A DNA stretch of 64,000 nucleotides from Pseudoxanthomonas suwonensis 11-1 (GTDB lineage: Bacteria; Pseudomonadota; Gammaproteobacteria; Xanthomonadales; Xanthomonadaceae), in NCBI RefSeq assembly GCF_000185965.1, contig NC_014924.1:682001-746000 (forward strand), in the 5' to 3' direction. The first letter of the stretch is position 1. Each line of letters begins with the position of its first letter. This document shows, one piece after another, positions 50,385 to 64,000 of this stretch. The notes under the pieces are model-generated. The model saw only the letters and a list, made by a program, of their open reading frames with translations, was not told the DNA's origin and did not search any database. Made by a program: the position numbers and the translations under genes.

Positions 50385-50489
50385 GACAGACGGGCAACGC
50401 GGGAAACCGCGCACCCGTGTTCCGGCAAGGGGCAAGGGTTCCTGAGGGAAGCGAGTCCCTTTCCAAACAACCGCTCTAGGGGAATGAAA

Positions 50490-50912
50490 ATGAAGAAGCA
50501 GCAGGGCTTTACCCTGATCGAACTGATGATCGTCGTCGCGATCATCGCCATCCTGGCCGCCATCGCGCTGCCGGCGTATCAGGACTACACCATCCGTTCG
50601 CAGGTTTCCGAAGGCGCCACCCTGATGGCCGGTGCCAAGGCCGGCGTGACCGAGTTCTGGTCCGACAAGGGCCGTTTCCCGGACAGCAACGGTTCGGCTG
50701 GCGTTCCGCAGGCCGGCTCGATCACCGGTACCTACGTGACCCAGGTTGAAGTTGGCGATGACGGCGTCATCACCGCCACCTACGGCAACAACGTCAACCA
50801 GAAGATCTCCGGCCAGGAGTGCTCGATCACCCCGCGCGACGGCGGTGGCAGCGTGGTCTGGGCCGGCACCTGCGACTTCCCGGAGAAGTGGCGTCCGTCG
50901 GCGTTCCGCTGA
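50490..50912 (+). CDS. pilA: Type IV major pilin PilA
   Basis: A 140-residue prepilin. The six-residue leader (MKKQQG) is cleaved before F7, and E11 (position 5 of the mature protein) is the conserved glutamate ([36 protein letters not shown]). A C-terminal disulfide loop is expected from C111 and C128. The protein ends WRPSAFR, without the C-terminal serine used by TfpO-type glycosylation. ATG 50490 is preferred over ATG 50484 because AGGGG at 50478-50482 is then correctly spaced. Confidence 0.96.
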
Positions 50913-50935
50913 TAAGCGATCCCTCGATCGCCTAG

Positions 50936-50968
50936 AAGAAGCCCGGGATTTCCCGGGCTTCTTTTTTT
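50936..50968 (+). terminator. Terminator of pilA
   Basis: GAAGCCCGGG (50938-50947) pairs with CCCGGGCTTC (50952-50961) around a 4-base loop, then seven T follow. It is a very strong terminator, so most pilA transcripts should stop here and the glycan genes beyond need readthrough or their own promoter. Confidence 0.95.
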
Positions 50969-51030
50969 GCAGCAGCGTCCCCTATGCTTTGGGACGTCGC
51001 CCACCGCGGCAAAGACACACCGGGGCACCA

Positions 51031-53034
51031 TTGAGAATCCTCCGACATCCGCCCGGCCCGCAGGCCGTTGCGGGCTGCATCCTCCTGCTGGTGGGCCTGC
51101 TGGCCTGGTTCCTCTACGGGCAGGCGCGTGGTCTGACGTGGCAGTTTGATGACCTGATCAACCTGCGTGGCCTTACAAGGGCCAGTACGCAGGATGGCCT
51201 GGTCGGATTCGTTTTCGGCGGCATCGCCGGACCTGGTGGGCGGCCCCTCGCCCTTGCGAGCTTCCTCGCCGATTACGCGTACTGGCCTGGGGATCCCTGG
51301 GCCCTCGTCCGCCACACGCTGGTGTGGCACATGATGACCGGAGCCCTGGTCTTCATGTTCTTCCTGGCCGTGCTTCGCCAGCATGAGCGGCTGCAGGAAC
51401 GGGCGATGACGCTCGCCGCCGCCGCTGCCGCGGTCTGGCTGCTGATGCCCATTCATGCCAGCGGCATCCTCATGCCGGTCCAGCGCATGACGGTGATGTC
51501 CGGCTTCTTCGTCATGGCGACGCTGGTGGCCTACGTCCACCTGCGCGTGCGCCTGGCCGGGCGCGGGACCGTGGTGCCGATCCTCATCCTGGGGCTGGTC
51601 TGCGGCACCGGGATGGCGCTGGCCTACCTCACCAAGGAAAACGGCCTGCTGCTGCTCGCCTTCGTGCCGCTGGTGGAATGGCTGCTGCTCCCGAACCTGG
51701 CAGCGCCCGGACCCTGGCGGCTCTGGCGCTGGGGCATGCGTATTTCCTTCCTGGCTGTTCCCGCGGCGCTGGCATGGCGGCTGTGGGACACCTGGAGCCG
51801 GATGCAGGTCCGCTACACCTACGACCGTGAGTTCAGCCTGGCCGAACGTCTCGCCAGCGAAGCAGTGATCCTGTGGGAATACCTGCGGCACATCTTCATC
51901 CCGCGGGCCGCCCTGCTGGGTCCGTTCCATGACGGCCATGCGATCTGGAACTGGAAGTCGGTGCTGCCGTGGCTGGCAGTGCTTGCCTTCGTCATCCTGC
52001 TGGTCGCGACCTGGCGCATGGCCCGACGCGGCAGTGCTGCCTGGCGCTGGGCCTTCTTCGCGCTCGCGTTCTACCTTGCTGCACATATGATGGAGTCCAC
52101 GGTCATCCCGCTGGAACTCTATTTCGAACACCGCAACTACGTCGCGGCGCTGGGCATTGCCGGGCTGGTGGTAGTAGCGGTCGACACAGCCTTGCGAAAC
52201 GCCTCCTCCAAGGCCGTCGTGGCGGTCGTGGTCCTGGTCATGGGGGCCTACCACGTCATCATGCTCCAGCAGACCACCTCTCTATGGGGCAACCGGTTGC
52301 TTGCCGGGGAGATGTGGTACCAGGCGCACCCATCTTCCGGGCGCGCCGCCCAGCATCTCTCCTGGCTTTACCGCCAGTACGACTTCGATGACGCATCGAT
52401 CGCCGTGCTCGATCGCTTCTCCAGCGCCCACACCGGACGCATCGATATCGGCATGCAGGCACTGGACTCTTCCTGCAGGACCGGGACGGGGGCTGCCCTC
52501 GGCGAGCGCCTCGAGCGGCTGATCGTAGAAGTGCCGGAGCTTCGCAATCCGGCGGGCGTCGCGGGGACGATCGGGCGGCTTGGAGGCGCGATCCGCGCCG
52601 GCAAATGCCAGGGCATCGAGCTGGAGCGCTACAAGGCGCTGCTCCTTGCACTGATGGAGAACCCGCGCATCCAGCACATGCCTCGGGTCAGGCACCATGT
52701 CGACCACGAACTGGCCGCGATAGCGCTGGTCCAGGGCGATAACGAAGCGCGCCTGGGCTATCTGCGGCAAGCCTTCGATGATTATCCGAGCCTGTCCGGT
52801 GCGCAGGTCGTCGCGAGGTTGCTGTTCGCCCAGGGGCGCAATGATGAGGCCATCGCCTGGATCGAGCATGCGCTGGCGAGATCGCCCGACGGGCTGTCGC
52901 GTCGCGCGTGGGGCGTGACCCTGGGGAGCCTGCGCGAGGCGATCGTCGAGGTGGAGCGGCTCCGCAGCTCATGGAAGCTGCCAGGGGGTGACGACCAGCC
53001 AGGGGGCGTTGACGCCGATGATCATGCTCGATGA
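51031..53034 (+). CDS. Polytopic membrane protein with C-terminal TPR-like region, candidate pilin modification transferase
   Basis: Not recognised with certainty. About 667 residues. The first two thirds contain about ten hydrophobic segments (e.g. QAVAGCILLLVGLLAWFLYG, TGALVFMFFLAVL, TVVPILILGLVCGTGMALAYL). The last third (about residues 480-660) is soluble and helical with TPR-like pairs (DDASIAVLDRFSS, LGYLRQAFDDYPSLSGAQVV, NDEAIAWIEHALA). Its place directly after pilA, with TfpZ-like and flippase genes nearby, recalls TfpW or other pilin oligosaccharyltransferases, which are also large polytopic proteins. No catalytic motif was seen that proves this. The start is uncertain: TTG 51031 has GGGG ahead and no ATG fits. 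The end overlaps the flippase gene. Confidence 0.6.
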   Translation: MRILRHPPGPQAVAGCILLLVGLLAWFLYGQARGLTWQFDDLINLRGLTRASTQDGLVGFVFGGIAGPGGRPLALASFLADYAYWPGDPWALVRHTLVWHMMTGALVFMFFLAVLRQHERLQERAMTLAAAAAAVWLLMPIHASGILMPVQRMTVMSGFFVMATLVAYVHLRVRLAGRGTVVPILILGLVCGTGMALAYLTKENGLLLLAFVPLVEWLLLPNLAAPGPWRLWRWGMRISFLAVPAALAWRLWDTWSRMQVRYTYDREFSLAERLASEAVILWEYLRHIFIPRAALLGPFHDGHAIWNWKSVLPWLAVLAFVILLVATWRMARRGSAAWRWAFFALAFYLAAHMMESTVIPLELYFEHRNYVAALGIAGLVVVAVDTALRNASSKAVVAVVVLVMGAYHVIMLQQTTSLWGNRLLAGEMWYQAHPSSGRAAQHLSWLYRQYDFDDASIAVLDRFSSAHTGRIDIGMQALDSSCRTGTGAALGERLERLIVEVPELRNPAGVAGTIGRLGGAIRAGKCQGIELERYKALLLALMENPRIQHMPRVRHHVDHELAAIALVQGDNEARLGYLRQAFDDYPSLSGAQVVARLLFAQGRNDEAIAWIEHALARSPDGLSRRAWGVTLGSLREAIVEVERLRSSWKLPGGDDQPGGVDADDHAR

Positions 53035-54784
53035 CCTTCGCAAGGTCTGGACGCTGTTCACACCGGACAGCCGGCGACGTGCTGTCGGGCTATTGGTCCT
53101 GGTGGTCCTGATGGCACTGGTGGAGGCGGCAGGCGTGCTGTCGATCCTTCCATTCCTGAGCGTGCTGGGGGATCCAGGGGTGGTGCAGCGGAACCCACTG
53201 ATCGCCGCGGCCTATCGCGAGTTTGGATTCCAGGGCGCGCGCCAGTTCACGGTTGCGCTCGGCATCTTCTCTGTCGTATTCGTCCTTGCATCTTCCGCGC
53301 TCAAGGTGACGACCCAGCACGTCCTCAACCGTTTCGTTCACCTGCAGCGGCATTCCATCAGCATGCGCCTGCTGGCGACCTATTTGCAGCAACCCTATGC
53401 CTTCTTCCTTGCGCGCAATTCATCGGATCTTTCGAAAGCAATCCTGTCCGAAACCGACCAGATCCTTTCCAACCTGATCCAGCCTCTGGCGCAGATGGTC
53501 GCGCAGCTGGTCGTGGTGATGGCAATGGTCACGCTGATCCTTTGTTATGACCCGCTGATGGCGCTGGTCTTGCTGGGTACCGTCGGCGCCCTGTATGCCG
53601 TCATCTACTCACTCGTGCGGAAGCGACTGGGACGCATCGGTGCAGAGCGTATCGCTGCCAACCGGGAGCGTTACCAGGCCTGCAATGAGGCGCTGGGTGG
53701 CATCAAGGACGTCAAGGTGACCAACTCGGCTGGCGCTTACATGTCGCGCTTCCGGCACGCATCACGGACCTTCTCGCGACACCTTGCGTCCAACGACACG
53801 CTGAGCCAGGCGCCGCTTTACCTGGTTGAGGCTGTGGGGTATTCGTGCCTCATCCTCGTGGCGCTGCTACTGCTGGCACGGGCGGAGAATGTCGGTGAGG
53901 TTCTGCCTGCGCTTGGCCTGTATGGTATAGCCGCCTATCGCATGCTGCCGGCTGCGCAGATCATCTACCGAGGCTTCGCCAAGTTGCGGTTCTCTTCTGC
54001 GGCTCTGGAGATGCTCTCCGCAGACCTGGGGCTGGAGATGCCTCTCCTTCCCTGCGTCTTGAATCCCGTCGAAATGGTGGAGCCACGCCACGAGATCCGC
54101 CTGGTGGGAATCACGTTCGCCTATCCGTCTGCTCCCGAGAAAAAGGTGATCGAGGGGTTCGATTTGGTCATTCCGGCGTGCTCGACCGTTGGTATCTGCG
54201 GGCGCAGTGGTGCTGGCAAGAGCACCTTGATGGACATCCTTCTCGGCCTGCTTCGCCCCTCGGAAGGGCGGCTCATGGTCGATGACGTCATCATCGATGA
54301 TGCATCTGTGCCGGCGTGGCAGCGCTCAATTGGGTATGTCCCCCAGCACATCTTCCTGGCAGACGCCAGCGTGGCGGCCAACATTGCCTTCGGCGTCCCC
54401 AAGGCCGAAATCGACATGGTGGCAGTGGAGAAGGCGGCTCGTGCAGCACAGATACACGAGTTCGTGGCAGGCGAGCTTGCGCAGGGCTACGCTACATATG
54501 TCGGAGAGCGGGGAGTGCGTCTTTCCGGTGGGCAGCGTCAAAGACTCGGAATTGCCAGGGCGCTTTACCGGGATCCGCCTATCCTGCTGTTCGATGAAGC
54601 GACAAGCGCGCTGGATGCCGACACCGAGCGGGCACTCAACGAGTCAATCAGGGCCCTGAAGGGCAAGAGGACCATGGTGGTCATTGCACACAAGGAAAGC
54701 TCGCTTGCAATGTGCGACCGGGTGATCGAGGTTGGCCGGACCAGAACGTCGGGAAATGATGCAGTTGGGGGAGCGCAGGCATGA
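53018..54784 (+). CDS. ABC-type lipid-linked glycan flippase (MsbA/PglK-like)
   Basis: A 588-residue half-transporter. The membrane domain (about 1-340) has six segments (e.g. AVGLLVLVVLMALVEAAGVLSILPFL, LAQMVAQLVVVMAMVTLILCY). The ATPase has Walker A GRSGAGKST at about residues 394-402, a signature LSGGQRQRLGIARAL near 500 and Walker B ILLFDEATSALD. The size and layout match lipid-linked oligosaccharide flippases such as PglK. It would carry a lipid-linked glycan or polyol phosphate chain across the inner membrane. ATG 53018 is preferred; GTG 52988 would lengthen it by ten residues. Overlaps at both ends suggest an operon. Confidence 0.85.
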   Translation: MIMLDDLRKVWTLFTPDSRRRAVGLLVLVVLMALVEAAGVLSILPFLSVLGDPGVVQRNPLIAAAYREFGFQGARQFTVALGIFSVVFVLASSALKVTTQHVLNRFVHLQRHSISMRLLATYLQQPYAFFLARNSSDLSKAILSETDQILSNLIQPLAQMVAQLVVVMAMVTLILCYDPLMALVLLGTVGALYAVIYSLVRKRLGRIGAERIAANRERYQACNEALGGIKDVKVTNSAGAYMSRFRHASRTFSRHLASNDTLSQAPLYLVEAVGYSCLILVALLLLARAENVGEVLPALGLYGIAAYRMLPAAQIIYRGFAKLRFSSAALEMLSADLGLEMPLLPCVLNPVEMVEPRHEIRLVGITFAYPSAPEKKVIEGFDLVIPACSTVGICGRSGAGKSTLMDILLGLLRPSEGRLMVDDVIIDDASVPAWQRSIGYVPQHIFLADASVAANIAFGVPKAEIDMVAVEKAARAAQIHEFVAGELAQGYATYVGERGVRLSGGQRQRLGIARALYRDPPILLFDEATSALDADTERALNESIRALKGKRTMVVIAHKESSLAMCDRVIEVGRTRTSGNDAVGGAQA

Positions 54785-55533
54785 GGATCTTCGGCAAGGG
54801 CGCCCAAGGGGCGGAGCCCCGGATAGAGCGCAGCAGCGTCGAGCGCTTCTTCGAGGAGCGGGCTGGCAAGCTTTCGCAGGTCGGTGCACTCAAGGCGGTT
54901 CTTTACCAGGACAAGCATCCAGATCTCGCCGAACGGCGGGACGCGGCAGAAAAGGCCCGCATCCGCCCGCTTCTCCGGCTGGCTGGGCACGAGCGGGTGC
55001 TGGACGTCGGCAGCGGGACAGGCCGTTGGACCGACGAGCTTGCAAGCTCGGTGGCGTACTACCACGGCATCGATTTCAGTGCCGGACTGGTCGAGTATGC
55101 ACGCCAGCGACACCCGCCCGGGCCTCGGGTTGGTTTCACTGTTGCGTCCGCGGATGACTACTCGCTTGAGTCGCTGGGCGTTGGCGAGCCCTTTGACGTC
55201 ATCCTCTGCTGCGGGGTGATGATTTATCTCAACGACGACGAAGTGGATCGCGCGCTTCGCTGCATGGCGGAGGTATGCGCGCCGCAGGCAAGGATAGTGT
55301 TGCGCGAGCCCGTGGGTATCGCGGACAGGTTGACCATCAGCGAGCACTACTCGGACGAGATGGAGCAGACCTACAACGCCATCTATCGCACCGAGGAGGA
55401 GCTGATCCGTCGCATCGGCCATGAACTAGGCACCAGGGGCTTCCATGTCAGTGATGCCGGCGACGTCTACGAGGCTGCGCTGAACAATCGGGCGGAAACC
55501 ATCCAGCGCTGGTTCGTCATGGAGCGTCCATGA
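54781..55533 (+). CDS. Class I SAM-dependent methyltransferase
   Basis: A 250-residue Rossmann methyltransferase. The SAM-binding VLDVGSGTGRW is at residues 73-83, the acidic end of beta-2 follows in HGIDFSAGLVEYA, and post-motif FDVILCCGVMIYL is near residue 140. The product is not determinable. It overlaps the flippase and HAD genes as ATGA, so it belongs to the polymer operon. In polyol-phosphate and O-antigen systems a methyltransferase may cap the chain end or modify a sugar; this is inference. Confidence 0.8.
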   Translation: MRIFGKGAQGAEPRIERSSVERFFEERAGKLSQVGALKAVLYQDKHPDLAERRDAAEKARIRPLLRLAGHERVLDVGSGTGRWTDELASSVAYYHGIDFSAGLVEYARQRHPPGPRVGFTVASADDYSLESLGVGEPFDVILCCGVMIYLNDDEVDRALRCMAEVCAPQARIVLREPVGIADRLTISEHYSDEMEQTYNAIYRTEEELIRRIGHELGTRGFHVSDAGDVYEAALNNRAETIQRWFVMERP

Positions 55534-56132
55534 GCCGTACCGCCTATTGCTTCGACCTGGACGGTACCCTCACGTCGACCGAAATCCTGCCTTCGATCGC
55601 GGCGGAACTGGGCTTGTCCGAGGAAATTGCGACGTTGACCCGCATCACCATGGAGGGGTGGATCACCTTTGCCGAATCCCTCCGTCTGCGCGTGGCCATA
55701 CTCGGGCAGGTCCCGCTGGATGTCGTCAGATCCATCGTGGATGACATCGATCTGGATCCGGCCCTTGAGGCTTTTATTCGCGCCCGCCCGGACGAGTGCT
55801 TCGTGGTCACGGGCAACCTCGACTTGTGGGTCGGGCATCTCGTCGGTCGGCTTGGATGCCAAGGAGTGACTTCCCGCGCCAAGACCCGCAACGGCGTCGT
55901 GGTTCTTGAGCGGGTGCTGGACAAGGGTGATGCCGTGAAGGGGCTGCGCACTGCAGGATTTGATCGCATCATCTCGGTCGGAGATGGTTCGAATGATGTA
56001 CCTATGTTCAAGGAATCCGATATCGCAATCGCGTTCGGGGGCGTGCACAGCCCGACGCAGGCCGCCATCTCGGAGGCTGAATTTGTTGTCCATGACGCGG
56101 AGGCGCTGTGCAGCCTGTTGAGTACGCTGTAA
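55530..56132 (+). CDS. HAD superfamily phosphatase (SerB-like)
   Basis: A 200-residue HAD-IB phosphatase. Motif I FDLDGTL carries the nucleophile D9 and D11; motif II is FVVTGN near residue 92; the motif III lysine is in VLDKGDAVKGL; motif IV is SVGDGSNDVPMF. The small cap between motifs I and II suits a small phosphoester. It is followed by a LicC-like nucleotidyltransferase overlapping it by 25 bases, so the two may act on successive intermediates. Confidence 0.85.
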   Translation: MSRTAYCFDLDGTLTSTEILPSIAAELGLSEEIATLTRITMEGWITFAESLRLRVAILGQVPLDVVRSIVDDIDLDPALEAFIRARPDECFVVTGNLDLWVGHLVGRLGCQGVTSRAKTRNGVVVLERVLDKGDAVKGLRTAGFDRIISVGDGSNDVPMFKESDIAIAFGGVHSPTQAAISEAEFVVHDAEALCSLLSTL

Positions 56133-56794
56133 TCGCATCGGCTGGCCTTGGATCCCGGCTCGGCCATGGTTTGCCCAAGTCCATGCTGGAGATTAACGGT
56201 CGCACCGTCCTCTCGCGCTTGATCGAGAGCCTCCGGCCGCACGTCAAGGGAGTCCGTGTAGTGGTGGGGTACCGCGAGGACCTGGTGATCGGTCTTTGTG
56301 CGTCCCTTCACCGGGACGTGGTGATCGTGCGCAACCCGGAGTTCCGGACGACCAACACGGTCCAGAGCATGGCCATGGGAGCGAGGGGGCTTTCAGGCAA
56401 GGTGCTCTTCCTGGACGGCGACCTGATCGTCGAGCCTGGGTCCTTGAGCCACTTCATCGCCAAGGCGGCGGATGTGCCGAGCCTGGTCGCGGTGGCGCCG
56501 AGTCGTAGCGAGAATCCAGTCAATGTCGTCGTGGACGGACCTGAATCGCGGATGCTGGTCACCAGATTTACCCGGGATGCTGGTCACCCCTACGAGTGGG
56601 CCAACGTGGTGGCTGGACCCGCCGACATGATGGATGGTGCCGAAGGTTACGTTTTCCAGCGGCTTGAGGAGCATCTCCCGCTTGATGCAGCGTTGCTGGA
56701 CCTCAGGGAGGTCGATACTCCTGCCGATCTCGAACTGGCCAAGGCCTTTGCCCTCCAGGTCGATGAGCAAGGCGCGTTGCGTGCACGAGCCTGA
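56108..56794 (+). CDS. Nucleotidyltransferase, LicC/MobA-like
   Basis: A 228-residue NTP transferase with the signature AGLGSRLGHGLPKSMLEINGR (residues 11-31, with conserved G-x-G-x-R and PK) and the metal motif FLDGDL near residue 95. Enzymes of this group activate a sugar phosphate or phosphocholine with an NTP. The start is a GTG (56108) inside the HAD gene. The LicD-family gene follows 9 bases later, recalling licC-licD pairs, but licA and licB are not here. Whether the product is CDP-choline, CDP-glycerol or a nucleotide sugar cannot be decided. Confidence 0.8.
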   Translation: MQPVEYAVIASAGLGSRLGHGLPKSMLEINGRTVLSRLIESLRPHVKGVRVVVGYREDLVIGLCASLHRDVVIVRNPEFRTTNTVQSMAMGARGLSGKVLFLDGDLIVEPGSLSHFIAKAADVPSLVAVAPSRSENPVNVVVDGPESRMLVTRFTRDAGHPYEWANVVAGPADMMDGAEGYVFQRLEEHLPLDAALLDLREVDTPADLELAKAFALQVDEQGALRARA

Positions 56795-56803
56795 GTAGGC
56801 GCC

Positions 56804-57697
56804 ATGCAATTTCCCGACGAACGCAACGCGGACGCAAGCCCGCTGCGCAGGGTGCAGCTGATCGAACTCCGGCTCCTGAAAATGGTTGACTGGATATGCC
56901 GGACCCACGGGCTGCGCTACTGGCTCGACGGCGGCACGCTGCTCGGGGCCATCCGGCACGGTGGCTTCATCCCGTGGGACGACGATGTCGATATCGGGAT
57001 GCCAAGGAGGGACTACCTGCGTTTCCTCGAAGTTGCGCCTGTCCTGCTGCCGGACGACGCCTTCGTCGAGACAGGCGCGGCAGGCAGTGGGAGGCACTAC
57101 AACATTCCCTGCAGGGTGCGGGACCGGCACAGCCGCATCATGGATACACAGAGCGAAGACAATGCCGGGCAAGGGATCTTCATCGACATCATCCCCTTCG
57201 ATCACTTTCACGAAGGGGGACTGATGGCGCTCACGGAGCGCATGGCCAAGTTGGCCTATCGGGAGCTGCTCAAGATCCACCAGCCGACGCGTTCGGCTGG
57301 GAGGATCCACAGATTCTCCAGCCGCCTGCTCTCCACGCCCATCCCCGGAGTGACGCCGGAACTGCCAATCCGCCTCTTCAGTCGGTTCTGCAAAGCCGCC
57401 TTCGTGGGGCGCACGCACAATTCCGGTGGCTGCCTCGGATACGGGTTCGACGTGCGCTGGACGAGGATCTTCCGTGAGATGGACATTCTCCCACTGCGCA
57501 TGGCGTCATTCGAAGGGGTGGAGTTCATGGTCCCCGCGAATGCCCATGCTGTCCTTGAGCTGTTCTACGGTTCCGACTACATGCAGCCGCCTCCGCCATC
57601 GGAGCGAGGTGCTAGGCACTTCGGCACGGTTGTGATCGACACGCGCCTTGGGGAGCGGCCGGAGATGGTCGGCTGGGAAGCGGCTGGTCAGTTATGA
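56804..57697 (+). CDS. LicD family phosphotransferase
   Basis: A 297-residue protein with the full LicD motif near residues 39-64: YWLDGGTLLGAIRHGGFIPW, then DDDVDIGM. The family transfers phosphocholine or phosphoryl-polyol units from CDP donors to glycans. The central region has GIFIDIIPFDH, typical of the family. The start at 56804 follows the LicC-like gene by 9 bases, and the end overlaps the next gene as ATGA. Confidence 0.9.
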   Translation: MQFPDERNADASPLRRVQLIELRLLKMVDWICRTHGLRYWLDGGTLLGAIRHGGFIPWDDDVDIGMPRRDYLRFLEVAPVLLPDDAFVETGAAGSGRHYNIPCRVRDRHSRIMDTQSEDNAGQGIFIDIIPFDHFHEGGLMALTERMAKLAYRELLKIHQPTRSAGRIHRFSSRLLSTPIPGVTPELPIRLFSRFCKAAFVGRTHNSGGCLGYGFDVRWTRIFREMDILPLRMASFEGVEFMVPANAHAVLELFYGSDYMQPPPPSERGARHFGTVVIDTRLGERPEMVGWEAAGQL

Positions 57698-58956
57698 AGG
57701 TGATCCAGAGGCGCGCCCTCTCCAATGCACTGCTGCTCTTGGGTAGCGTGGCCTGGTCGCTGCTGCGTCCGGTGGCGTGGCTGGTTCGACGCCGTGAAGA
57801 CCTGGTCGCTTTTTACGGGCGGGACGGCGGGCGATTCCTGGATAACTGCAAACACCTGTTCTGCGGGGGCTCCGCCGAGACGCTGCCGGGAATCAGGACG
57901 GTATACATCGCGCACAGCGACGAACTCGTGGAGTTGATCGCAGGGTACGGTCGCGAAGCGGTCCGCAAGGGTACCTTGGCGGAGCTCCTACTCTGGTTGC
58001 GCGCCGGGACGATCGTGGTGGACAGCGTGGACTGGACCGATGGCTTCCGGTTCGCGGCATCGCAGGGTGCCCGGATCGTGCAGCTCTGGCACGGAATTCC
58101 GCTGAAGCACGTACAGTTGGCCCGTGTCCGCGGTCGTGCGCGCCGACGGTTCGGCTTGGAGTGGGCATATCAGCTGTACCTGAGGGCGTCGGGACGCCTG
58201 CGCCCGGTCAGCTGGCTGCTTAGTACTTCACCGTTCGTTACGGAGCATGCATTCAGTCGCTCGTTCCTGTACGAAGCCGTATCTCACGCAGGATATCCGC
58301 GTAATGATGCCTTTTTCGACGGCAGCCCCCTGCGCATGCTAAACGTCGATCAGAGGGCCGCGTCGCTCGTAGCGGCCCAGCGCCAACGCGGTGGGAGCGT
58401 TGGCGTGTACGCGCCGACCTTCCGGGACTCGCTGGCCGACCCTTTTGCGAAAGGGGAACTGGATCTCGAAGGGCTATCCGCCGCCGCCATGGCAGTCGGC
58501 ACGCTGCTGCTGGTAAAGCTGCACCCGTGGATGCACGGTCACCTCAGGTCCACGGACCACCATGGCCTAGTGTTCGTCGCGCCCGATTCGGATATCTATC
58601 CGCTCCTGTGCCATGCCGACTTTCTCGTAACCGACTACTCGTCGATCTTCTTCGACTACCTGATGCTGGACCGTCCGGTGATCTTTTTCCCGTATGACCT
58701 TGACAGGTATCTTCGTCAGGAACGAGACATGTACTTCGAGTACGGGGAATTCACCCCCGGAGAGAAGGTGTTTGACCTGGATGGCTTGGAGGCCGCGATG
58801 CGGAAGGCAATCATGGATCCATCATATGGAGCAGGCGAGCGCGACCGGATCCGGCGCACGGTCTTCAGCCATGCCAGCGGATCTGCTGCGGAACGGCTCT
58901 ACCGGGAACTATTCCCGCGGGCCTCGAATTCCAGCGATGTTGGGACCGGACAATGA
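57694..58956 (+). CDS. CDP-glycerol glycerophosphotransferase (TagB/TagF-like), first copy
   Basis: A 420-residue GT-B transferase of the Glyphos_transf family, known for building teichoic acids from CDP-glycerol or CDP-ribitol. Motifs: LWHGIPLK at about residues 131-138, YAPTFRD near 253, and a DYSSIFFDYLMLDRPVIFF segment near 313-331. An N-terminal hydrophobic segment (ALLLLGSVAWSLLRPVAWLV) may bind the membrane. The length is shorter than Gram-positive TagF. It overlaps both neighbours as ATGA. Confidence 0.9.
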   Translation: MKVIQRRALSNALLLLGSVAWSLLRPVAWLVRRREDLVAFYGRDGGRFLDNCKHLFCGGSAETLPGIRTVYIAHSDELVELIAGYGREAVRKGTLAELLLWLRAGTIVVDSVDWTDGFRFAASQGARIVQLWHGIPLKHVQLARVRGRARRRFGLEWAYQLYLRASGRLRPVSWLLSTSPFVTEHAFSRSFLYEAVSHAGYPRNDAFFDGSPLRMLNVDQRAASLVAAQRQRGGSVGVYAPTFRDSLADPFAKGELDLEGLSAAAMAVGTLLLVKLHPWMHGHLRSTDHHGLVFVAPDSDIYPLLCHADFLVTDYSSIFFDYLMLDRPVIFFPYDLDRYLRQERDMYFEYGEFTPGEKVFDLDGLEAAMRKAIMDPSYGAGERDRIRRTVFSHASGSAAERLYRELFPRASNSSDVGTGQ

Positions 58957-59372
58957 GTCTGGCCGTGGATAGCAGCCGCGGTTCAATGATCGTCGTGACC
59001 TTCGGCACCTTCGACGTGCTGCACCTTGGTCACCTGCGCATCCTCGAGCGCGCTGCTGAGCTGGGCGACCGCCTGGTGGTTGGCGTCTCGTCGGATGCGC
59101 TGAACATCTCCAAGAAGGGGCGGGCACCAGTGTTCCCGGAGCACGAGCGGATGCGCCTGGTCGGGGCATTGCGCTGCGTCAGCGAGGTGTTCCTTGAGGA
59201 GTCGCTGGAACTCAAGCGCAACTACCTGCTGCGTTACCGGGCCGACGTGCTGGCCATGGGCGACGACTGGCGTGGCCGCTTCGACGAATTCTCGGATATC
59301 TGCAGGGTGGTCTACTTCGAGCGGACGCCGGCGATCTCCACCACCGCATTGATCGAGAAGATCCGGCTCTAG
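58953..59372 (+). CDS. Glycerol-3-phosphate cytidylyltransferase-like (TagD-like)
   Basis: A 139-residue cytidylyltransferase. The HxGH motif is in GTFDVLHLGH (residues 18-27), and RTPAISTT (124-131) corresponds to the RTxGISTT motif. The most likely product is CDP-glycerol, the donor for the two TagB/TagF-like enzymes. A related possibility is another CDP-polyol. ATG 58953 overlaps the previous stop as ATGA. Its TAG stop is the middle of a CTAG shared with the convergent gene. Confidence 0.88.
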   Translation: MSLAVDSSRGSMIVVTFGTFDVLHLGHLRILERAAELGDRLVVGVSSDALNISKKGRAPVFPEHERMRLVGALRCVSEVFLEESLELKRNYLLRYRADVLAMGDDWRGRFDEFSDICRVVYFERTPAISTTALIEKIRL

Positions 59373-60544
59373 CCGGACCGCTCCATGTACCCGGCCAGCC
59401 GCCCGGAGCAGCGCCGGGCGGCCGAGCCGTCCGCGATCCGGCCGTAGACGCGGGCGCGGATATCGGTGTGGCTTGCCCTGTACGCCTGCCAGTAGCCTTC
59501 TTCGTCGTCCAGGGCCGTGCCCAGCGCTTCCAGTAGCGCGGGGAGGCTGGGGATGACGGGGCCGAAGCGATATTCGGGGCCCAGAGAGAATCCCTTGCGG
59601 AACGGGGGAGGCACGTCGAGGAACAGCGTGGGCCGATCAAGTAGCAGGTAATCGAAGGCGATCGACGACCAGTCGCAGACCAGTACGTCGCTGGCCAGCA
59701 GGATGCCTTCCGTATCCGGGTAGCGCGATCCGGGGAGTTGGATCATGCCCGGGAGCCGGATCGTCGTGCCATCGCCGCTGTTGAGGTGGCTGCGGACCAG
59801 GAGCGTCGCATCGCGCTGTCGCACGAATGCGGCGAGCTGCGAGAGGAACTCGGCTTCCGTGTGGCCGAACGGATAGATGCTGCGTCCCTTCTGGTCCTGG
59901 GCCCAGGTGGGCGCGAACAGGACGACCCGGGACGAGTCGCTGATGCCGAGCTCCTCGCGCAGGCGCGTGCCGGAGCCATCGTCCGTGACCAGCCGGTCGG
60001 TGCGGGGATAGCCGGTGGCCACGACCTTGGCCGGTTCGAAGCCGAACTGGTCCACGTACAGTTGCCGGCACAGTCCAGAGGCCACCCAGGTTTCGTCGTA
60101 GCGGTGCTGCACGCGGAAGTCGTCGGCGTCGAATCCCTTGAACGGGATGCCATGCCACACGTCGAAGAAGCCCAGCCTTGCGCGTCGGTAAGCGGGTTGC
60201 AGGAGTTCAAGGGAATGCAGGCCATGGTCGCTGACCACGGCCCCGGCGGTGGCGAGCAGTCGGGCGCAGGCTGGGCTGCAGGCATGGCAGCTGTCGAAAC
60301 CCTGTGCCTGCAGCTGCCGGCGGTAGTCGCCATCCATGGTCAGGAACACGGCGCGCGGTGAACCGCGGCGACGCAACTCCTCGTGAAGTGCGAAGAGGTT
60401 GCCGTTCAGCTTGTGGCCGTAGAGCACCACCACATCTTCGGCGCGCCGCCTGCGCAGGTGGCGCAGCAACAGCCCCAGGATCGCCTGTGCGAGGAAGCCG
60501 ACCAGCAGCAGCCAGTGCAGGGGGCGTTTCCTGTCGATCTTCAT
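59369..60544 (-). CDS. CDP-glycerol glycerophosphotransferase (TagB/TagF-like), second copy
   Basis: A 391-residue Glyphos_transf protein. An N-terminal hydrophobic segment (WLLLVGFLAQAILGLLLRHL, about residues 11-30) is followed by the GT-B domain: FDVWHGIPFKG (128-137), VVLFAPTWAQDQKG and DWSSIAFDYLLLDRPTLFLD. ATG 60544 is preferred because it begins just before the hydrophobic segment. It differs clearly from the copy at 57694, so they are paralogues rather than a recent duplication. One may prime the chain and the other extend it, as TagB and TagF do. The stop is shared with the tagD-like gene. Confidence 0.9.
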   Translation of the reverse strand: MKIDRKRPLHWLLLVGFLAQAILGLLLRHLRRRRAEDVVVLYGHKLNGNLFALHEELRRRGSPRAVFLTMDGDYRRQLQAQGFDSCHACSPACARLLATAGAVVSDHGLHSLELLQPAYRRARLGFFDVWHGIPFKGFDADDFRVQHRYDETWVASGLCRQLYVDQFGFEPAKVVATGYPRTDRLVTDDGSGTRLREELGISDSSRVVLFAPTWAQDQKGRSIYPFGHTEAEFLSQLAAFVRQRDATLLVRSHLNSGDGTTIRLPGMIQLPGSRYPDTEGILLASDVLVCDWSSIAFDYLLLDRPTLFLDVPPPFRKGFSLGPEYRFGPVIPSLPALLEALGTALDDEEGYWQAYRASHTDIRARVYGRIADGSAARRCSGRLAGYMERSG

Positions 60545-61707
60545 GCCCGCGCCGGCTCCCGTGTGTCGAGCAGGTCGAGGAGCTGGCGGTCGAAGCGTTC
60601 CCAGGAGAAGGAGGTCGCGAACACCTTCGCCGAGGCGCGCAGTGGAGTCGGGTCGCCCGCCAGCAGCGTGCATACCTCGCGGGCGAATCCTTGATAGTCC
60701 TCCTCGGCGACCAGCACGCCACTGGTGCCGGGCTTCACCGCGTCGGGCACGCCGCCGGCTGCGAAGGCCACGGTCGGCAAGCCGTGCGCGGCTGCCTCGA
60801 TCGCGACCATGCCGAAGCCTTCCACATCGCCCGGGATCGAACGTACCGGGAACACATGCAGGTCGCAGCCCGCGTAGGCTTGTGAAAGCGTGGCATCGTC
60901 GCAGGGGCCGAGGATCGCCACGTGCGCTCCCATGCCTGCGCGTGTGATCGCCGCGTCCAGCCGGGCACGGGGATCGGTGGTCGAACGGTTCAGGGCGTCC
61001 TGGGCGTTGTCGCCGACCAGAACGAGCCGGGCGCCGGGATGTGCTGCCACGATCGCCGGCAGGCAGCGTTCGATGAACTCAACGATGCCCTTGCGCTCGG
61101 TAAGCCGTCCGACGCTCAGCAGCAGCGGGCCTTCCCCGAGCGCGAAGCGCCGGCGGAAGTCTCCACCGCCGGGTACGTCCCCAGGCAGGCGCGTGCCTGG
61201 GTGCACTACCGCGATATTGCCACCGGCCACGGCGAGTCCGCGCGCGATGCTGGCGGTATTGGCGCTATTGGCGATCGCAAGCCCGAGCCGGCGCAGGAAC
61301 GGCATCCACAGCATCCGGTAGACCGGGTGCCGGGTGACCAGGTCCAGGCCGTGGACATAGGCCATGCTTCGCGCGCCGCTGCGGCGCCCGGCCAGGTACG
61401 CCAACGGCGCGGTCAATCCGCTGCCGGCCAGGACCAGCTCCGCCGGTTCGGACGAGGCAGACCATGCCGCTGCCGCCGCGCGCGGCAGGAAGCCCGCGGC
61501 ACCCTGCGCGGGAATCTCGCGTACGCGGATGCCGGGTGGCAGGTGCCCGCTGCAGCCGCGTGGCCCGATCACCAGCAGGTCGAAGCGGCGGGACAGGGCG
61601 ATGGCGACATGCCAGTTGAGCCGCTCCATGCCGCCGCGCAGCGGCGGCAGGTTGCGCGTGACCAGGATGGCCCGCGGCCTGGCCGCGGTCGGCGTCTCGC
61701 CAGTCAC
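60541..61707 (-). CDS. Glycosyltransferase family 4
   Basis: A 388-residue GT-B transferase. The C-domain has VGRLTERKGIVEFIERCLP, VLVGDNAQDAL, VAILGPCDDATLSQAYAGCDLHVFPVRS and EGFGMVAIEAAAHGLPTVAFAAGGVPDAV, the typical E-x7-E of GT4. N-terminal PPLRGGMERL is the usual glycine-rich loop. It would add a sugar from a nucleotide donor. It overlaps the genes on both sides as ATGA on the minus strand. Confidence 0.9.
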   Translation of the reverse strand: MTGETPTAARPRAILVTRNLPPLRGGMERLNWHVAIALSRRFDLLVIGPRGCSGHLPPGIRVREIPAQGAAGFLPRAAAAAWSASSEPAELVLAGSGLTAPLAYLAGRRSGARSMAYVHGLDLVTRHPVYRMLWMPFLRRLGLAIANSANTASIARGLAVAGGNIAVVHPGTRLPGDVPGGGDFRRRFALGEGPLLLSVGRLTERKGIVEFIERCLPAIVAAHPGARLVLVGDNAQDALNRSTTDPRARLDAAITRAGMGAHVAILGPCDDATLSQAYAGCDLHVFPVRSIPGDVEGFGMVAIEAAAHGLPTVAFAAGGVPDAVKPGTSGVLVAEEDYQGFAREVCTLLAGDPTPLRASAKVFATSFSWERFDRQLLDLLDTREPARA

Positions 61708-62570
61708 GGGTCGTCGTGCCGCGCAGCCAGGTAAGTCAGGTTGGTGATCTGCTCGGAGATGAGCCCGATCAGGAAGATGATGACCGATGCGCTGAACAGC
61801 AGCAGGCTCATGTTGGTGAACCGGTGCGCGGTGAAGTACGTGTAGCCGTAATAGCTCATGCCGGTCAGGAAGAAGGCCACGGCGACCGGGGCGAACAGCT
61901 TGAGCGGCGAGTACAGCGTGGCGATCTTGAAGATGATCAGCAGGAAGCGCACACCGTCGCGTAGTGGGCGGATGTGGCTGGTGCCGATGCGCTTGGCCAC
62001 CGGGATGGGTTCGTACGCCACCGGATAGGCACTGCGGAAGAAGGCCATGGTGCTGGTCGTCGGATAGGAGAACCCGTTTGGCAGAAGGTGCAGGAACTCC
62101 CGGAACTTCGATGCCCGTACGGCCCTGAAGCCGGAGGTCAGGTCCTTGACCTCGAAGTTCGTCATCCTGCTGGCGAGCCAGTTGTAGAACGTGTTCGCCA
62201 TTCCACGGCTCACGCCGGCCTGGCCGGACCAGTCGCGCGCGCCGACCACCATGTCGTAGCCCTCGGCCATGCGCTCGAGCAGCCGCGGGATCGAGGCCGG
62301 GTCATGCTGGCCGTCGGCATCCATGAAGATCAGGATCTCGCCGGTCGCGTGGCGCGCGCCGCGCTTGATCGCCGCGCCGTTGCCCATCGAATACGGAGCG
62401 CCGAGGACGATGGCGCCGTGCGCCCGCGAGACCTCGGCGGTGGCATCCGTGGAGCCATCGTCGACGACGATGAGTTCTGCCCCGGGCATGAGTTCCCGCA
62501 ACGCGGGGAGGGTCTTGCGAAGGCCCTCCGCCTCGTTCTTCGCAGGCAGGATGATGCTGATGGTGGACAA
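61704..62570 (-). CDS. Family 2 glycosyltransferase with membrane anchors (DPM1/GtrB-like)
   Basis: A 288-residue GT2 enzyme. The GT-A domain (about 1-210) has IILPAKNEAEGL, VVDDGSTDATAEV and FMDADGQHDP (D-x-D). Two membrane segments close the protein (about 225-245 and 258-280), as in polyprenyl-phosphate sugar synthases. It probably loads a sugar on undecaprenyl phosphate. A 91-base gap separates it from the upstream tfpZ-like gene. Confidence 0.9.
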   Translation of the reverse strand: MSTISIILPAKNEAEGLRKTLPALRELMPGAELIVVDDGSTDATAEVSRAHGAIVLGAPYSMGNGAAIKRGARHATGEILIFMDADGQHDPASIPRLLERMAEGYDMVVGARDWSGQAGVSRGMANTFYNWLASRMTNFEVKDLTSGFRAVRASKFREFLHLLPNGFSYPTTSTMAFFRSAYPVAYEPIPVAKRIGTSHIRPLRDGVRFLLIIFKIATLYSPLKLFAPVAVAFFLTGMSYYGYTYFTAHRFTNMSLLLFSASVIIFLIGLISEQITNLTYLAARHDDP

Positions 62571-62661
62571 GTCGGCTCCCCAAGCCTATGTGCAGCCGGA
62601 TATTAGCCGAATGTCCCGATCGGAATTCGGAACCCGGCCATCAGTTCCGCGCGTGCGCCCC

Positions 62662-63333
62662 TCATCTGACGACCTTGCGCGGCATCCCGGTGCGGGCGTC
62701 GACCAGCATGGTGGCTTCCTCTCCACGGGCCATGATCGGCACCGCGCGGAGCCCGGCCGTGTCGCCCGGCCCGGCGACGGTCCTTGCCAGCATCAGCGGC
62801 GCGACCTCCTCGTACGGTTGGAACCAGGCCGGCATGACGTGCTGGTCGCGGCCGGTCTCCAGGAAGATCTGGAGGAGTTCGCTCCGGGCCTGGGGTGAGG
62901 CTGGCGGCATGACCCCCACGAGGGCCGGGCCGGTCAAGGAGAGGCGGCGCCACTCCGGCCGGGCACCCTGTTCCAGGTCCTGGGGGGCGATCTCGTGGGC
63001 GAAGACCAGGTTCAGGCGTACGTCGCTGGCGACCAGGAAGACCGGTCGCGATACCCAGAGGGTATGTAGTCCATACGCCAGGAACGCCAACTGCACGGTC
63101 GAGATCACGGCCAGGTCCAGGCGCAGGCCCGGCTTGCCATGGCGGTAGATGGCGAGGGTCAGCAGCGGCCCGGCAGTCACGTCAATGAACAGCATGATCG
63201 CCATCAGCCGGTCCAGTCCGGAGATCCGCCAAAGCCCGTGCGGGTACCACAGCAGCAGGGCCGCTATGGCGATGGACGAGATGACGAGGATGCTCAGCAG
63301 GAGGTGGAGGGCGGCGGCTTTCCAGCGGCTCAT
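62662..63333 (-). CDS. TfpX/TfpZ-type type IV pilin accessory protein
   Basis: A 223-residue protein with three N-terminal membrane segments (about residues 8-29, 42-62 and 76-93), then a soluble periplasmic domain. The pattern WRISGLDRLMAIMLFIDVTAGPLLTLAIYRHGKPGLRLDLAVI is typical of the TfpX/TfpZ family, which helps assembly or stability of particular pilin alleles in Pseudomonas. In Pseudomonas it lies beside pilA; here it is beside pilB, at the far end of the polymer block and on the other strand. ATG 63333 is chosen because it starts just before the first membrane segment. Confidence 0.85.
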   Translation of the reverse strand: MSRWKAAALHLLLSILVISSIAIAALLLWYPHGLWRISGLDRLMAIMLFIDVTAGPLLTLAIYRHGKPGLRLDLAVISTVQLAFLAYGLHTLWVSRPVFLVASDVRLNLVFAHEIAPQDLEQGARPEWRRLSLTGPALVGVMPPASPQARSELLQIFLETGRDQHVMPAWFQPYEEVAPLMLARTVAGPGDTAGLRAVPIMARGEEATMLVDARTGMPRKVVR

Positions 63334-63486
63334 CGGGGAATCCGGACCAGAAGATCGCCGGGGATCATGCAAAGCAGCCCCCGCGGCCTGCAAGCCCGGT
63401 TGGCCGGGGCTGGCCGAAGCGGCCTTTTTCGTCCCCATGCGCCCCCCGTTGCGTTATCTTTCCCCCCGTTCCAGGGGAAGCCGCAC

Positions 63487-64000
63487 ATGAACGTCGCCAC
63501 CACCGCCAACCTTGTCGGTATCACCGGCATTGCCCGCCGTCTCGTCCAGGACGGCGCCATGGACGAGGGTGCGGCCCGGACGGCCATGGCCCAGGCGGCC
63601 GAGGCCAAGGTGCCGCTGGCCCAGTTCATCGCCGACAAGAAGCTGGTCAGCCCGGCCCAGCTGGCGGCCGCCAACTCGGTCGAGTTCGGCATCCCGCTGC
63701 TGGATGTGACCGCGTTCGACGCCTCCCAGAACGCGATGAAGCTGGTCAGCGAGGAGCTGCTGCAGAAGCACCGCCTGCTGCCCCTGTTCAAGCGCGGCAG
63801 CAAGCTGTTCGTGGGCGTCAGCAGCCCCACCCAGACTGGCGCCCTGGCCGAAATCCAGTTCCACACCAACCTGGCCGTCGAGCCGATCCTGGTGGACGAG
63901 GAACAGATCCGCCGCACCTTCGAGCAGTGGCAGAACGCCAATGCCCAGCTCGAGGGCGGCCTTGACGAGGACGACGAGGGCCTGGAGGGGCTGGAAGTCA
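63487..64000 (+). CDS. pilB: Type IV pilus assembly ATPase PilB, N-terminal part
   Basis: The first 171 residues of the pilus extension motor, cut by the window end. The N-terminal MshEN-like domain is visible: NLVGITGIARRLVQDG, QFIADKKLVSPAQLAAANSVEFGIPLLDVTAFD, and KRGSKLFVGVSSPTQTGALAEIQF. The last residues are acidic (LDEDDEGLEG), a linker before the ATPase domain that lies outside. GGGGAAG precedes ATG 63487. MshEN domains often bind c-di-GMP. Confidence 0.95.
   Translation, partial: MNVATTANLVGITGIARRLVQDGAMDEGAARTAMAQAAEAKVPLAQFIADKKLVSPAQLAAANSVEFGIPLLDVTAFDASQNAMKLVSEELLQKHRLLPLFKRGSKLFVGVSSPTQTGALAEIQFHTNLAVEPILVDEEQIRRTFEQWQNANAQLEGGLDEDDEGLEGLEV

Follow-up and report, generated by a model that had tools for sequence, protein, structure and literature searches.

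The genes located between the type IV pilin gene pilA and pilB of Pseudoxanthomonas suwonensis 11-1 probably represent a pilin-glycosylation locus with two modules for the transfer of nucleotide-activated phosphate groups. They were analyzed in a window of 64,000 nucleotides (contig NC_014924.1, positions 682,001 to 746,000) of a genome consisting of a single contig of 3,419,049 bases. A first-pass annotation of this DNA had described a complete-looking gene set for a phosphate-containing glycan, and every gene type it listed was found as an open reading frame (ORF) between pilA and pilB, based on ORF calling and Pfam searches (Table 1). One module comprises a methyltransferase (MT), a HAD-IB protein (HAD), a nucleotidyltransferase-type protein (NTP), and a LicD-family phosphotransferase, and the other a TagD-like cytidylyltransferase together with the Glyphos_transf proteins GlyP1 and GlyP2. 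A phosphate-bearing pilin glycan is predicted with the same confidence as the locus itself and, with slightly lower confidence in each case, this glycan is expected to carry a methylthreonine-type substituent and glycerol phosphate. The evidence consists of gene content, gene order, homology, recurrence at pil loci, and exchange of partner genes, all of which were observed directly; we infer the pilin as acceptor from the location of the block and from its core, formed by the glycosyltransferase GT2 and the polytopic protein Poly.

Linkage to pil genes was evaluated in 395 genomes of the family Lysobacteraceae by searches with a three-sequence GlyP2 profile (matches with E up to 1e-50) and with HAD (E up to 1e-25). 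These genomes, like the set of 149 used for LicD, are even samples of the larger family group, and a loose first pass limited scoring to up to four candidates per genome for GlyP2 and up to eight for HAD. GlyP2 was matched in 5 of the 395 genomes, representing five genera, with pilC at a distance of 3.9 to 9.2 kb in all five, and HAD in seven genomes of seven genera, with pilC 5.3 to 9.5 kb away in all seven. The position of HAD and GlyP2 at the pil locus is not due to chance. The annotation had named a location far from the pil genes in relatives as evidence against its proposal; both marker genes were found within 10 kb of pilC in every genome holding them, and their recurrence beside pil genes in several genera supports a tie between a phosphate-containing glycan and the pilus locus. 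Among 16 same-genus relatives, neither search yielded a match.

For Glyphos_transf and LicD genes in general, proximity to pil genes holds in part. Other strong Glyphos_transf genes (e.g., in family genomes G010, G028, G044, and G065) are located on a different contig from pilC or more than 100 kb off, so that pil linkage belongs to the GlyP2 subfamily and not to the whole enzyme family. LicD was detected in 7 of 149 family genomes and lies at the pil locus in three of them (G000, G037, and, weakly, G042).

Strong Glyphos_transf genes with TagD-like neighbours away from pil, for example in G010, G044, G063, and G065, would also fit a different explanation, according to which the product of the block is an O-antigen, a capsule, or a teichoic-acid-like surface polymer, the pil locus is merely an insertion hot spot, and the pilin is not the acceptor. 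PglK-, GT4-, and TagF-like enzymes serve surface polymers too. Furthermore, the GC content at third codon positions (GC3) amounts to 0.73–0.79 for the genes from that of the ABC transporter to GlyP1, compared to 0.86–0.94 for pilA, pilB, pilC, and pilD; values this low fit an insertion. Under the main reading, they fit a cassette gained by transfer, at least for ABC to GlyP1. Likewise, no pil gene was matched at 9 of the 19 GlyP2 loci described below. However, this explanation is considered unlikely, because GlyP2 and HAD are pil-linked in all family genomes that hold them, because the protein adjoining pilA appears to be GT-C-like, and because no capsule polymerase or export set was found among the block genes.

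A flagellin-type gene module at the pilin locus

A search of plasmid sequences with NTP led to a Pseudomonas aeruginosa record (L208) with a homologous run between flgL and the b-type fliC, consisting of MT, HAD, NTP, and a 1694-residue protein with Glyphos_transf and GT2 domains. The names PA1088 to PA1091 are applied to it by order and role after the published cluster, the compared record being another strain. The window proteins were 40% (MT, 239 aligned columns), 52% (HAD, 200 residues), and 41% (NTP, 218 aligned columns) identical to their counterparts. The order MT-HAD-NTP is common to the window and the b-type fliC neighbourhood, and NTP overlaps HAD by 25 bp, as called, in the window and in L208 alike.

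Genes of this kind are required for flagellin glycans that carry phospho-N-methylated threonine (PMC11833859, PMC10714395). For the b-type flagellin of strain PAO1, N,N-dimethylthreonine joined via phosphate to a deoxyhexose was reported from mass spectrometry of the wild type and mutants, and the flagellin of pa1088, pa1089, and pa1090 mutants keeps deoxyhexoses only (excerpts of PMC11833859). CD0241/PA1089, corresponding to HAD, has been hypothesised to be a phosphoserine:threonine phosphotransferase, CD0242, corresponding to NTP, a CTP:phosphothreonine cytidylyltransferase, and the TagF-like CD0244 the transferase (excerpts of PMC10714395). The HAD protein of the window is more likely a phosphotransferase than a phosphatase, and MT, HAD, and NTP would, by homology, make a CDP-N-methylated threonine. 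The phosphatase and the LicC-like partner of the annotation are present as genes, but among the sequences compared they are closest to genes beside the b-type flagellin. In the family genomes, the MT-HAD-NTP module sits at pil and not at flagellin genes: flagellin-domain genes were not found in three of the seven HAD genomes (G037, G042, and G319), and the nearest match was 49 kb away in G072 and farther in G000 and G197; in G206, the matches were on other contigs. The flagellin-domain genes of the window genome are located about 0.93 Mb from the block, the neighbour of which is a pilin.

Decoration with glycerol or choline phosphate had been suggested initially. For choline phosphate, the LicC-like protein and LicD would add the group after the methyltransferase had made choline phosphate from ethanolamine phosphate. 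Membership in the LicD family agrees with such a route, as does the annotation of a phosphocholine cytidylyltransferase family in six of the ten plasmid matches of NTP listed (27–32% identity). However, the 13 genes that run from pilA through TfpX/TfpZ include neither LicA nor LicB, and no choline-phosphate cytidylyltransferase is named among eight PDB matches of NTP. HAD, NTP, and MT are collinear with the b-type flagellin genes at the higher identities of 40–52%, and the b-type glycan is the one reported with dimethylthreonine. LicD also directly follows NTP at a locus lacking TagD and Glyphos_transf matches (L217). The choline route is given very little chance, and choline phosphate is probably wrong; the glycerol phosphate part of the suggestion fares better, as TagD together with GlyP2 fits a polyol phosphate.

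LicD is located directly 3' of NTP in the window, in G037 (L103), and in G319 (L217). At the G319 locus (15.4 kb), no TagD or Glyphos_transf match was obtained, so that LicD is the likeliest transferase there; for the window, chances that LicD is the methylthreonine transferase are about even. Alternatively, GlyP1 or GlyP2 would transfer the phospho-methylthreonine and LicD would add something else. In favour of this possibility, CD0244 and part of PA1091 are described as TagF-like (excerpts of PMC10714395), and Glyphos_transf is present in the PA1091-like protein, which GlyP1 matches with 43.9 bits over 79 columns. Moreover, NTP occurs without LicD, and GlyP2 without TagD, at the pil locus of G206 (L207). 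Against it stand L217, where neither TagD, GlyP1, nor GlyP2 was matched in 15.4 kb, and most of the 19 GlyP2 loci, where TagD adjoins GlyP2 but HAD was not matched (HAD only in L187 and L192). Transfer by a GlyP protein is possible, yet it is ranked behind LicD as the user of the NTP product. A strict pairing of one donor-making enzyme with one transferase was rejected because L207 breaks the pattern.

Several related loci differ in content. A sulfatase-domain protein (PF00884, 42 bits; L207:10522-11910) is encoded in the pil locus with MT-HAD-NTP and GlyP2 and could be a lipid-donor phosphotransferase. In G072 (L109:8068-12860), MT-HAD-NTP is followed by a 496-residue protein with a Glyphos_transf match below the cut-off (20.2 vs. 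22.1), a Polysacc_synt flippase-type protein is encoded upstream, and LicD and ABC are replaced. The pil locus of Arenimonas donghaensis also holds GlyP2 and a HAD-NTP fusion.

GlyP2 and its exchangeable donor-making enzymes

Beyond the family, a non-exhaustive scan of 84,980 species, each represented by a single genome, with two peptide patterns revealed 19 GlyP2 loci, including one partial match with 27% identity (L201). L187 and the family locus G042/L104 are the same contig and were counted as one case, and L184 (Stenotrophomonas daejeonensis) may be identical to G221. A PilA, PilB, or PilC match was detected in the fetched DNA of 10 loci (L183–L188, L192, L195, L196, and L200). A donor-making enzyme was present in 18 of the 19 loci, only L197 being without any. 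A TagD-type match was located within 1 kb of GlyP2 in 14 loci, a count that takes in L186 (2-base overlap) and L190 (weak, 65.5 bits), and 4.8 kb from GlyP2 in L195. In place of TagD, an IspD-SDR fusion was found in L192 and also in L103, and a fusion of a cytidylyltransferase with a phosphoenolpyruvate (PEP) mutase in L187/L104 and L189. Because the donor-making enzyme near GlyP2 is exchanged between loci, GlyP2 is read as an enzyme that transfers polyol phosphates, or mimics of them, from nucleotide-activated donors, and TagD with GlyP2 fits a second, polyol-phosphate module in the window.

IspD-SDR fusions of the Bcs1/Acs1 type make CDP-ribitol. Those of L103 and L192 pass the IspD model TIGR00453 (204.8 and 203.1 vs. 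a cut-off of 181.3) and approach, but stay below, the cut-off of the model for ribitol-5-phosphate cytidylyltransferase (147.0 and 153.6 vs. 166), so that CDP-ribitol is a presumed product only. In L104, the models for PEP mutase (407.9 vs. a cut-off of 319.6) and phosphonopyruvate decarboxylase (465.3 vs. 312.5) were both passed, and a PsrA-like dehydrogenase scored under its cut-off (350.2 vs. 423.7). For Fom1, the N-terminal cytidylyltransferase domain was described to make CMP-hydroxyethylphosphonate (excerpts of PMC6697681). The enzyme set of L104 predicts hydroxyethylphosphonate on a pilus glycan.

In L104:3089-6662 (Arenimonas donghaensis), the Fom1-like fusion, the decarboxylase, and the PsrA-like dehydrogenase are encoded together between pilA and pilB. 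The marine gamma proteobacterium HTCC2148 possesses a fusion (L189:11686-12978) that scores 592 bits to that of L104 and lies about 0.5 kb from GlyP2; no pil gene was matched in 21 kb of this locus. In an Azoarcus metagenome-assembled genome, the pil-linked pair of GlyP2 and TagD has a NeuB-family synthase and a dehydratase of the Polysacc_synt_2 family as neighbours (L186:12548-18536).

Glycosylation core and predicted pathway

A PilC match (E up to 1e-60) was obtained in 141 family genomes, of which 120 pil loci were taken; among the 21 left out, eleven are near contig ends. Poly was matched at 65 and GT2 at 69 of the 120 loci. Three loci without a PilB match above 200 bits were dropped, and of the remaining 117, 60 hold both genes, four and four hold one only, and 49 hold neither (Fisher 2.6e-23; 60 of the 68 loci with either gene hold both), counts and a test value that take in related genomes, uncorrected for kinship. 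In the four loci with GT2 only (L131, L147, L173, and L174), a Poly match was present no more than 25 kb from pilC, either beyond the fetched DNA or at its edge. The nearest gap between Poly and a pilin was up to 500 bp in 44 of the 59 loci with both matched (of 64 with Poly).

As expected from the annotation, which had described a glycosyltransferase anchored like a polyprenyl-phosphate sugar synthase, the PDB matches of GT2 were ArnC, dolichol-phosphate mannose synthase, and sll0501; its best NCBIfam match was the archaeal AglJ (112 bits vs. a cut-off of 325). The polytopic protein after pilA was also found, and its description could be refined. Poly showed no Pfam family above the cut-off and was modelled with AlphaFold2 (AF2) at a pLDDT of 84 (77 for the membrane part alone). 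The full-length model was matched mostly with TPR proteins among the best 50 PDB matches listed. The top seven Foldseek matches of the membrane part were chains of 644–706 residues from oligosaccharyltransferase-holding complexes (9n9j among them), which fits the catalytic subunit STT3, and were followed at lower ranks by EmbB, ArnT, and PglB. Judged by the models, the membrane part of Poly looks like a GT-C fold, with a TPR-like C-terminus. The ABC transporter was aligned to PglK (5c73) over residues 18–582, with several eukaryotic ABCB proteins outscoring PglK, and, being PglK-like, favours a flipped lipid-linked glycan.

Accordingly ordered by homology and gene association, from which every reaction is deduced, the pathway would begin on a polyprenyl-phosphate carrier, where GT2 would start a glycan for GT4 to lengthen. 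HAD, NTP, and MT would produce CDP-N-methylated threonine, from which LicD may move phospho-methylthreonine onto the glycan, and TagD would produce CDP-glycerol, from which GlyP2, together with GlyP1, may attach glycerol phosphate. The PglK-like protein would then flip the lipid-linked glycan, and Poly would transfer it to PilA. Expression of the downstream genes would be held below the pilin level by the hairpin that follows pilA. A short pilin glycan bearing single phosphate substituents is at least as good a fit as a long teichoic-acid-like chain.

A number of results weigh against this reading. The flagellin pathways use a phosphotransferase other than LicD, L207 lacks both LicD and TagD, and the GC3 dip from ABC to GlyP1 leaves out TagD and GlyP2 (0.84–0.86 for TagD, GlyP2, and GT4). 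Nine of the 19 GlyP2 loci showed no PilA, PilB, or PilC match in the fetched DNA, which was under 6 kb for L191 and L198. Cut-offs were missed by the ABC transporter (best NCBIfam PglK NF050066, 308 bits vs. 1000), the TagD-like protein (glycerol-3-phosphate cytidylyltransferase TIGR01518, 109.9 vs. 165.4 bits), and the TfpX/TfpZ-like protein (no Pfam family; NF041437 as best and only NCBIfam match, 168.7 bits vs. 200), as they were by the IspD-SDR fusions with the ribitol model. The kinship within the GT2-Poly counts has to be added, as has the weakness of the GT-C match of Poly, for which no PDB match reached E ≤ 0.001 (best 0.016; TM-score by query 0.38–0.44 for the top seven). Finally, pilin-like ORFs showed no difference in the frequency of a C-terminal Ser/Thr, with 65 of 101 where the locus has Poly and 49 of 75 where it does not. 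As this residue does not track Poly, it was rejected as a TfpO-like site, and no glycosylation site is supported.

Relation to known systems and layout of the locus

The block resembles the Type A cluster of Clostridioides difficile (cd0240-0244), compared by its published description only, and the b-type cluster of P. aeruginosa (pa1088-1091), compared by sequence, in its MT-HAD-NTP homologues in the same order, a nucleotide-donor phosphotransferase nearby, and an adjacent gene for a surface filament protein. It differs in its surroundings, which hold a type IV pilin gene and no flagellin gene, in having LicD, and not a CD0244/PA1091-type protein, directly after NTP, and in adding GT2, ABC, GT-C-like proteins, TagD, and GlyP2. 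With wall teichoic acid synthesis (TagD, TagF/TarF/TarL), it has a TagD homologue and the Glyphos_transf family in common. In contrast, it lies at a Gram-negative pil locus and encodes a PglK-like transporter. The wall teichoic acid set includes the linkage-unit enzymes TagO and TagA and the exporter TagGH, and no TagO-, TagA-, or TagGH-like gene was found among the block genes.

Pilin glycosyltransferase cassettes (TfpO, TfpW, and TfpX/Y/Z) share with the window a membrane protein beside pilA, a TfpX/Z-like gene, the hairpin after pilA, and a variable gene content. The membrane protein of such cassettes is a transferase of the GT-C or Wzy_C type, for which Poly is a candidate. Poly of the window has a TPR-like C-terminus, and phosphate modules are not part of the descriptions, available in excerpts, by which TfpO/TfpW were compared. 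The phospho-forms added by Neisseria PptA/PptB also place phosphate groups on pilin; PptA is an alkaline-phosphatase-superfamily enzyme for which a lipid donor has been proposed (excerpts of PMC10434233), and nucleotide-activated donors are predicted for the window. That these enzymes differ, as the annotation had stated, agrees with the lack of an alkaline-phosphatase-superfamily transferase among the block genes. Phosphonate tailoring of the Fom1 or PntC type finds its likeness in the Arenimonas donghaensis pil locus and not in the window. The block is not classed as a wall teichoic acid, Lic-1, or PptA system, as their defining features were looked for in the block and are missing.

Each enzyme family is known, and the block would work like the Type A/b-type flagellin pathway and TagD/TagF chemistry. 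What appears new is that these are joined beside a pilin gene and probably use a lipid carrier; a limited literature search found no paper joining methylthreonine or CDP-glycerol pathways to type IV pilin glycosylation. If the reading is correct, pilins join flagellins as carriers of glycans with phospho-methylated amino acids, the reach of TagD/TagF-type chemistry extends to a protein glycan in Gram-negative bacteria, and a pilus is predicted to bear a phosphonate. The phosphate modules would be exchangeable cassettes on a widespread GT2-Poly core. More tentatively, type IV pili of several Lysobacteraceae and Betaproteobacteria may carry glycans with exchangeable caps made from nucleotide-activated phosphate groups, among them glycerol phosphate, ribitol phosphate, hydroxyethylphosphonate, and phospho-N-methylthreonine. 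Teichoic-acid- and flagellin-type enzymes would add the caps and a TPR-domain GT-C protein would carry out the transfer, giving a modular pilus-surface code with a possible anti-phage role. P. aeruginosa and its pilus-targeting phages are treated in PMC11841053 (excerpts), on which basis cap exchange could change phage sensitivity.

Across the locus, pilD and pilC on the minus strand are followed by pilA and the hairpin on the plus strand, and the plus-strand run from Poly to TagD (short gaps or overlaps) faces the minus-strand genes, with pilB beyond them (Table 1). Start codons are uncertain for Poly (TTG at 50989 or 51031, or GTG at 51091), and an alternative ATG at 53018 is possible for the ABC transporter.

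Table 1. Features between pilA and pilB, with positions in the window.
Feature	Position	Strand	Evidence
PilA, major type IV pilin, proposed acceptor	50484..50912	+	Pfam Pilin 72 bits, N_methyl
Hairpin into T-run, probable terminator/attenuator of genes downstream of pilA	50934..50965	+	RNA folding
Poly, polytopic, GT-C-like, TPR-like C-terminus, candidate pilin glycosyl-/oligosaccharyltransferase	51031..53034	+	AF2 models, Foldseek
ABC transporter, PglK-like, candidate lipid-linked-glycan flippase	52988..54784	+	ABC_tran, ABC_membrane, Walker A and LSGGQ motifs
MT, methyltransferase, PA1088-position homologue	54781..55533	+	Methyltransf_25 64 bits
HAD, HAD-IB protein, PA1089-position homologue, probable phosphothreonine-forming phosphotransferase	55530..56132	+	PF12710 46.5 bits, SerB-like
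NTP, PA1090-position homologue, probable CTP:phospho(methyl)threonine cytidylyltransferase	56108..56794	+	NTP_transf_3 54.6 bits
LicD-family phosphotransferase, proposed user of NTP product	56804..57697	+	PF04991 148 bits, profile 1-227 of 227
GlyP1, Glyphos_transf (TagF/TarF-like) phosphotransferase	57694..58956	+	PF04464 195.7 bits; TarL/TagF by PDB
TagD-like glycerol-3-phosphate cytidylyltransferase (CDP-glycerol)	58953..59372	+	115 bits to 1coz
GlyP2, Glyphos_transf phosphotransferase, subfamily marking these loci	59369..60544	-	PF04464 129 bits; TarL/TagF by PDB
GT4-family glycosyltransferase	60544..61707	-	Pfam
GT2, polyprenyl-phosphate-sugar-synthase-like	61704..62570	-	Pfam; hydrophobic C-terminal stretches read by eye
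TfpX/TfpZ-like pilin accessory protein	62662..63333	-	NF041437, below cut-off
PilB, gene start, continues past window end	63487..64000	+	576 aa in L063

HxGH and RTxxIST are TagD-type motifs, and the TagD-like protein, aligned to 1coz over 14–137, contains HLGH and RTPAIST. GlyP1 holds WHG and LLVKLH motifs, which are presumably catalytic. The hairpin was seen by folding (-27.3 kcal/mol, z -6.4; none of 200 shuffled sequences folded as well) and was not listed by a consensus terminator scan; a hairpin after pilin genes that have accessory genes is described in excerpts of PMC11841053. An Rfam search over 46–64 kb gave no match at gathering scores, and a tRNA search found none. Over the 120 family pil loci (L063–L182), the stretch between pilB and the pilin gene was highly variable, ranging from less than 1 kb to more than 14 kb, and the reading proposed here would account, in testable form, for the strong variation of the pilA-pilB genes in the family.

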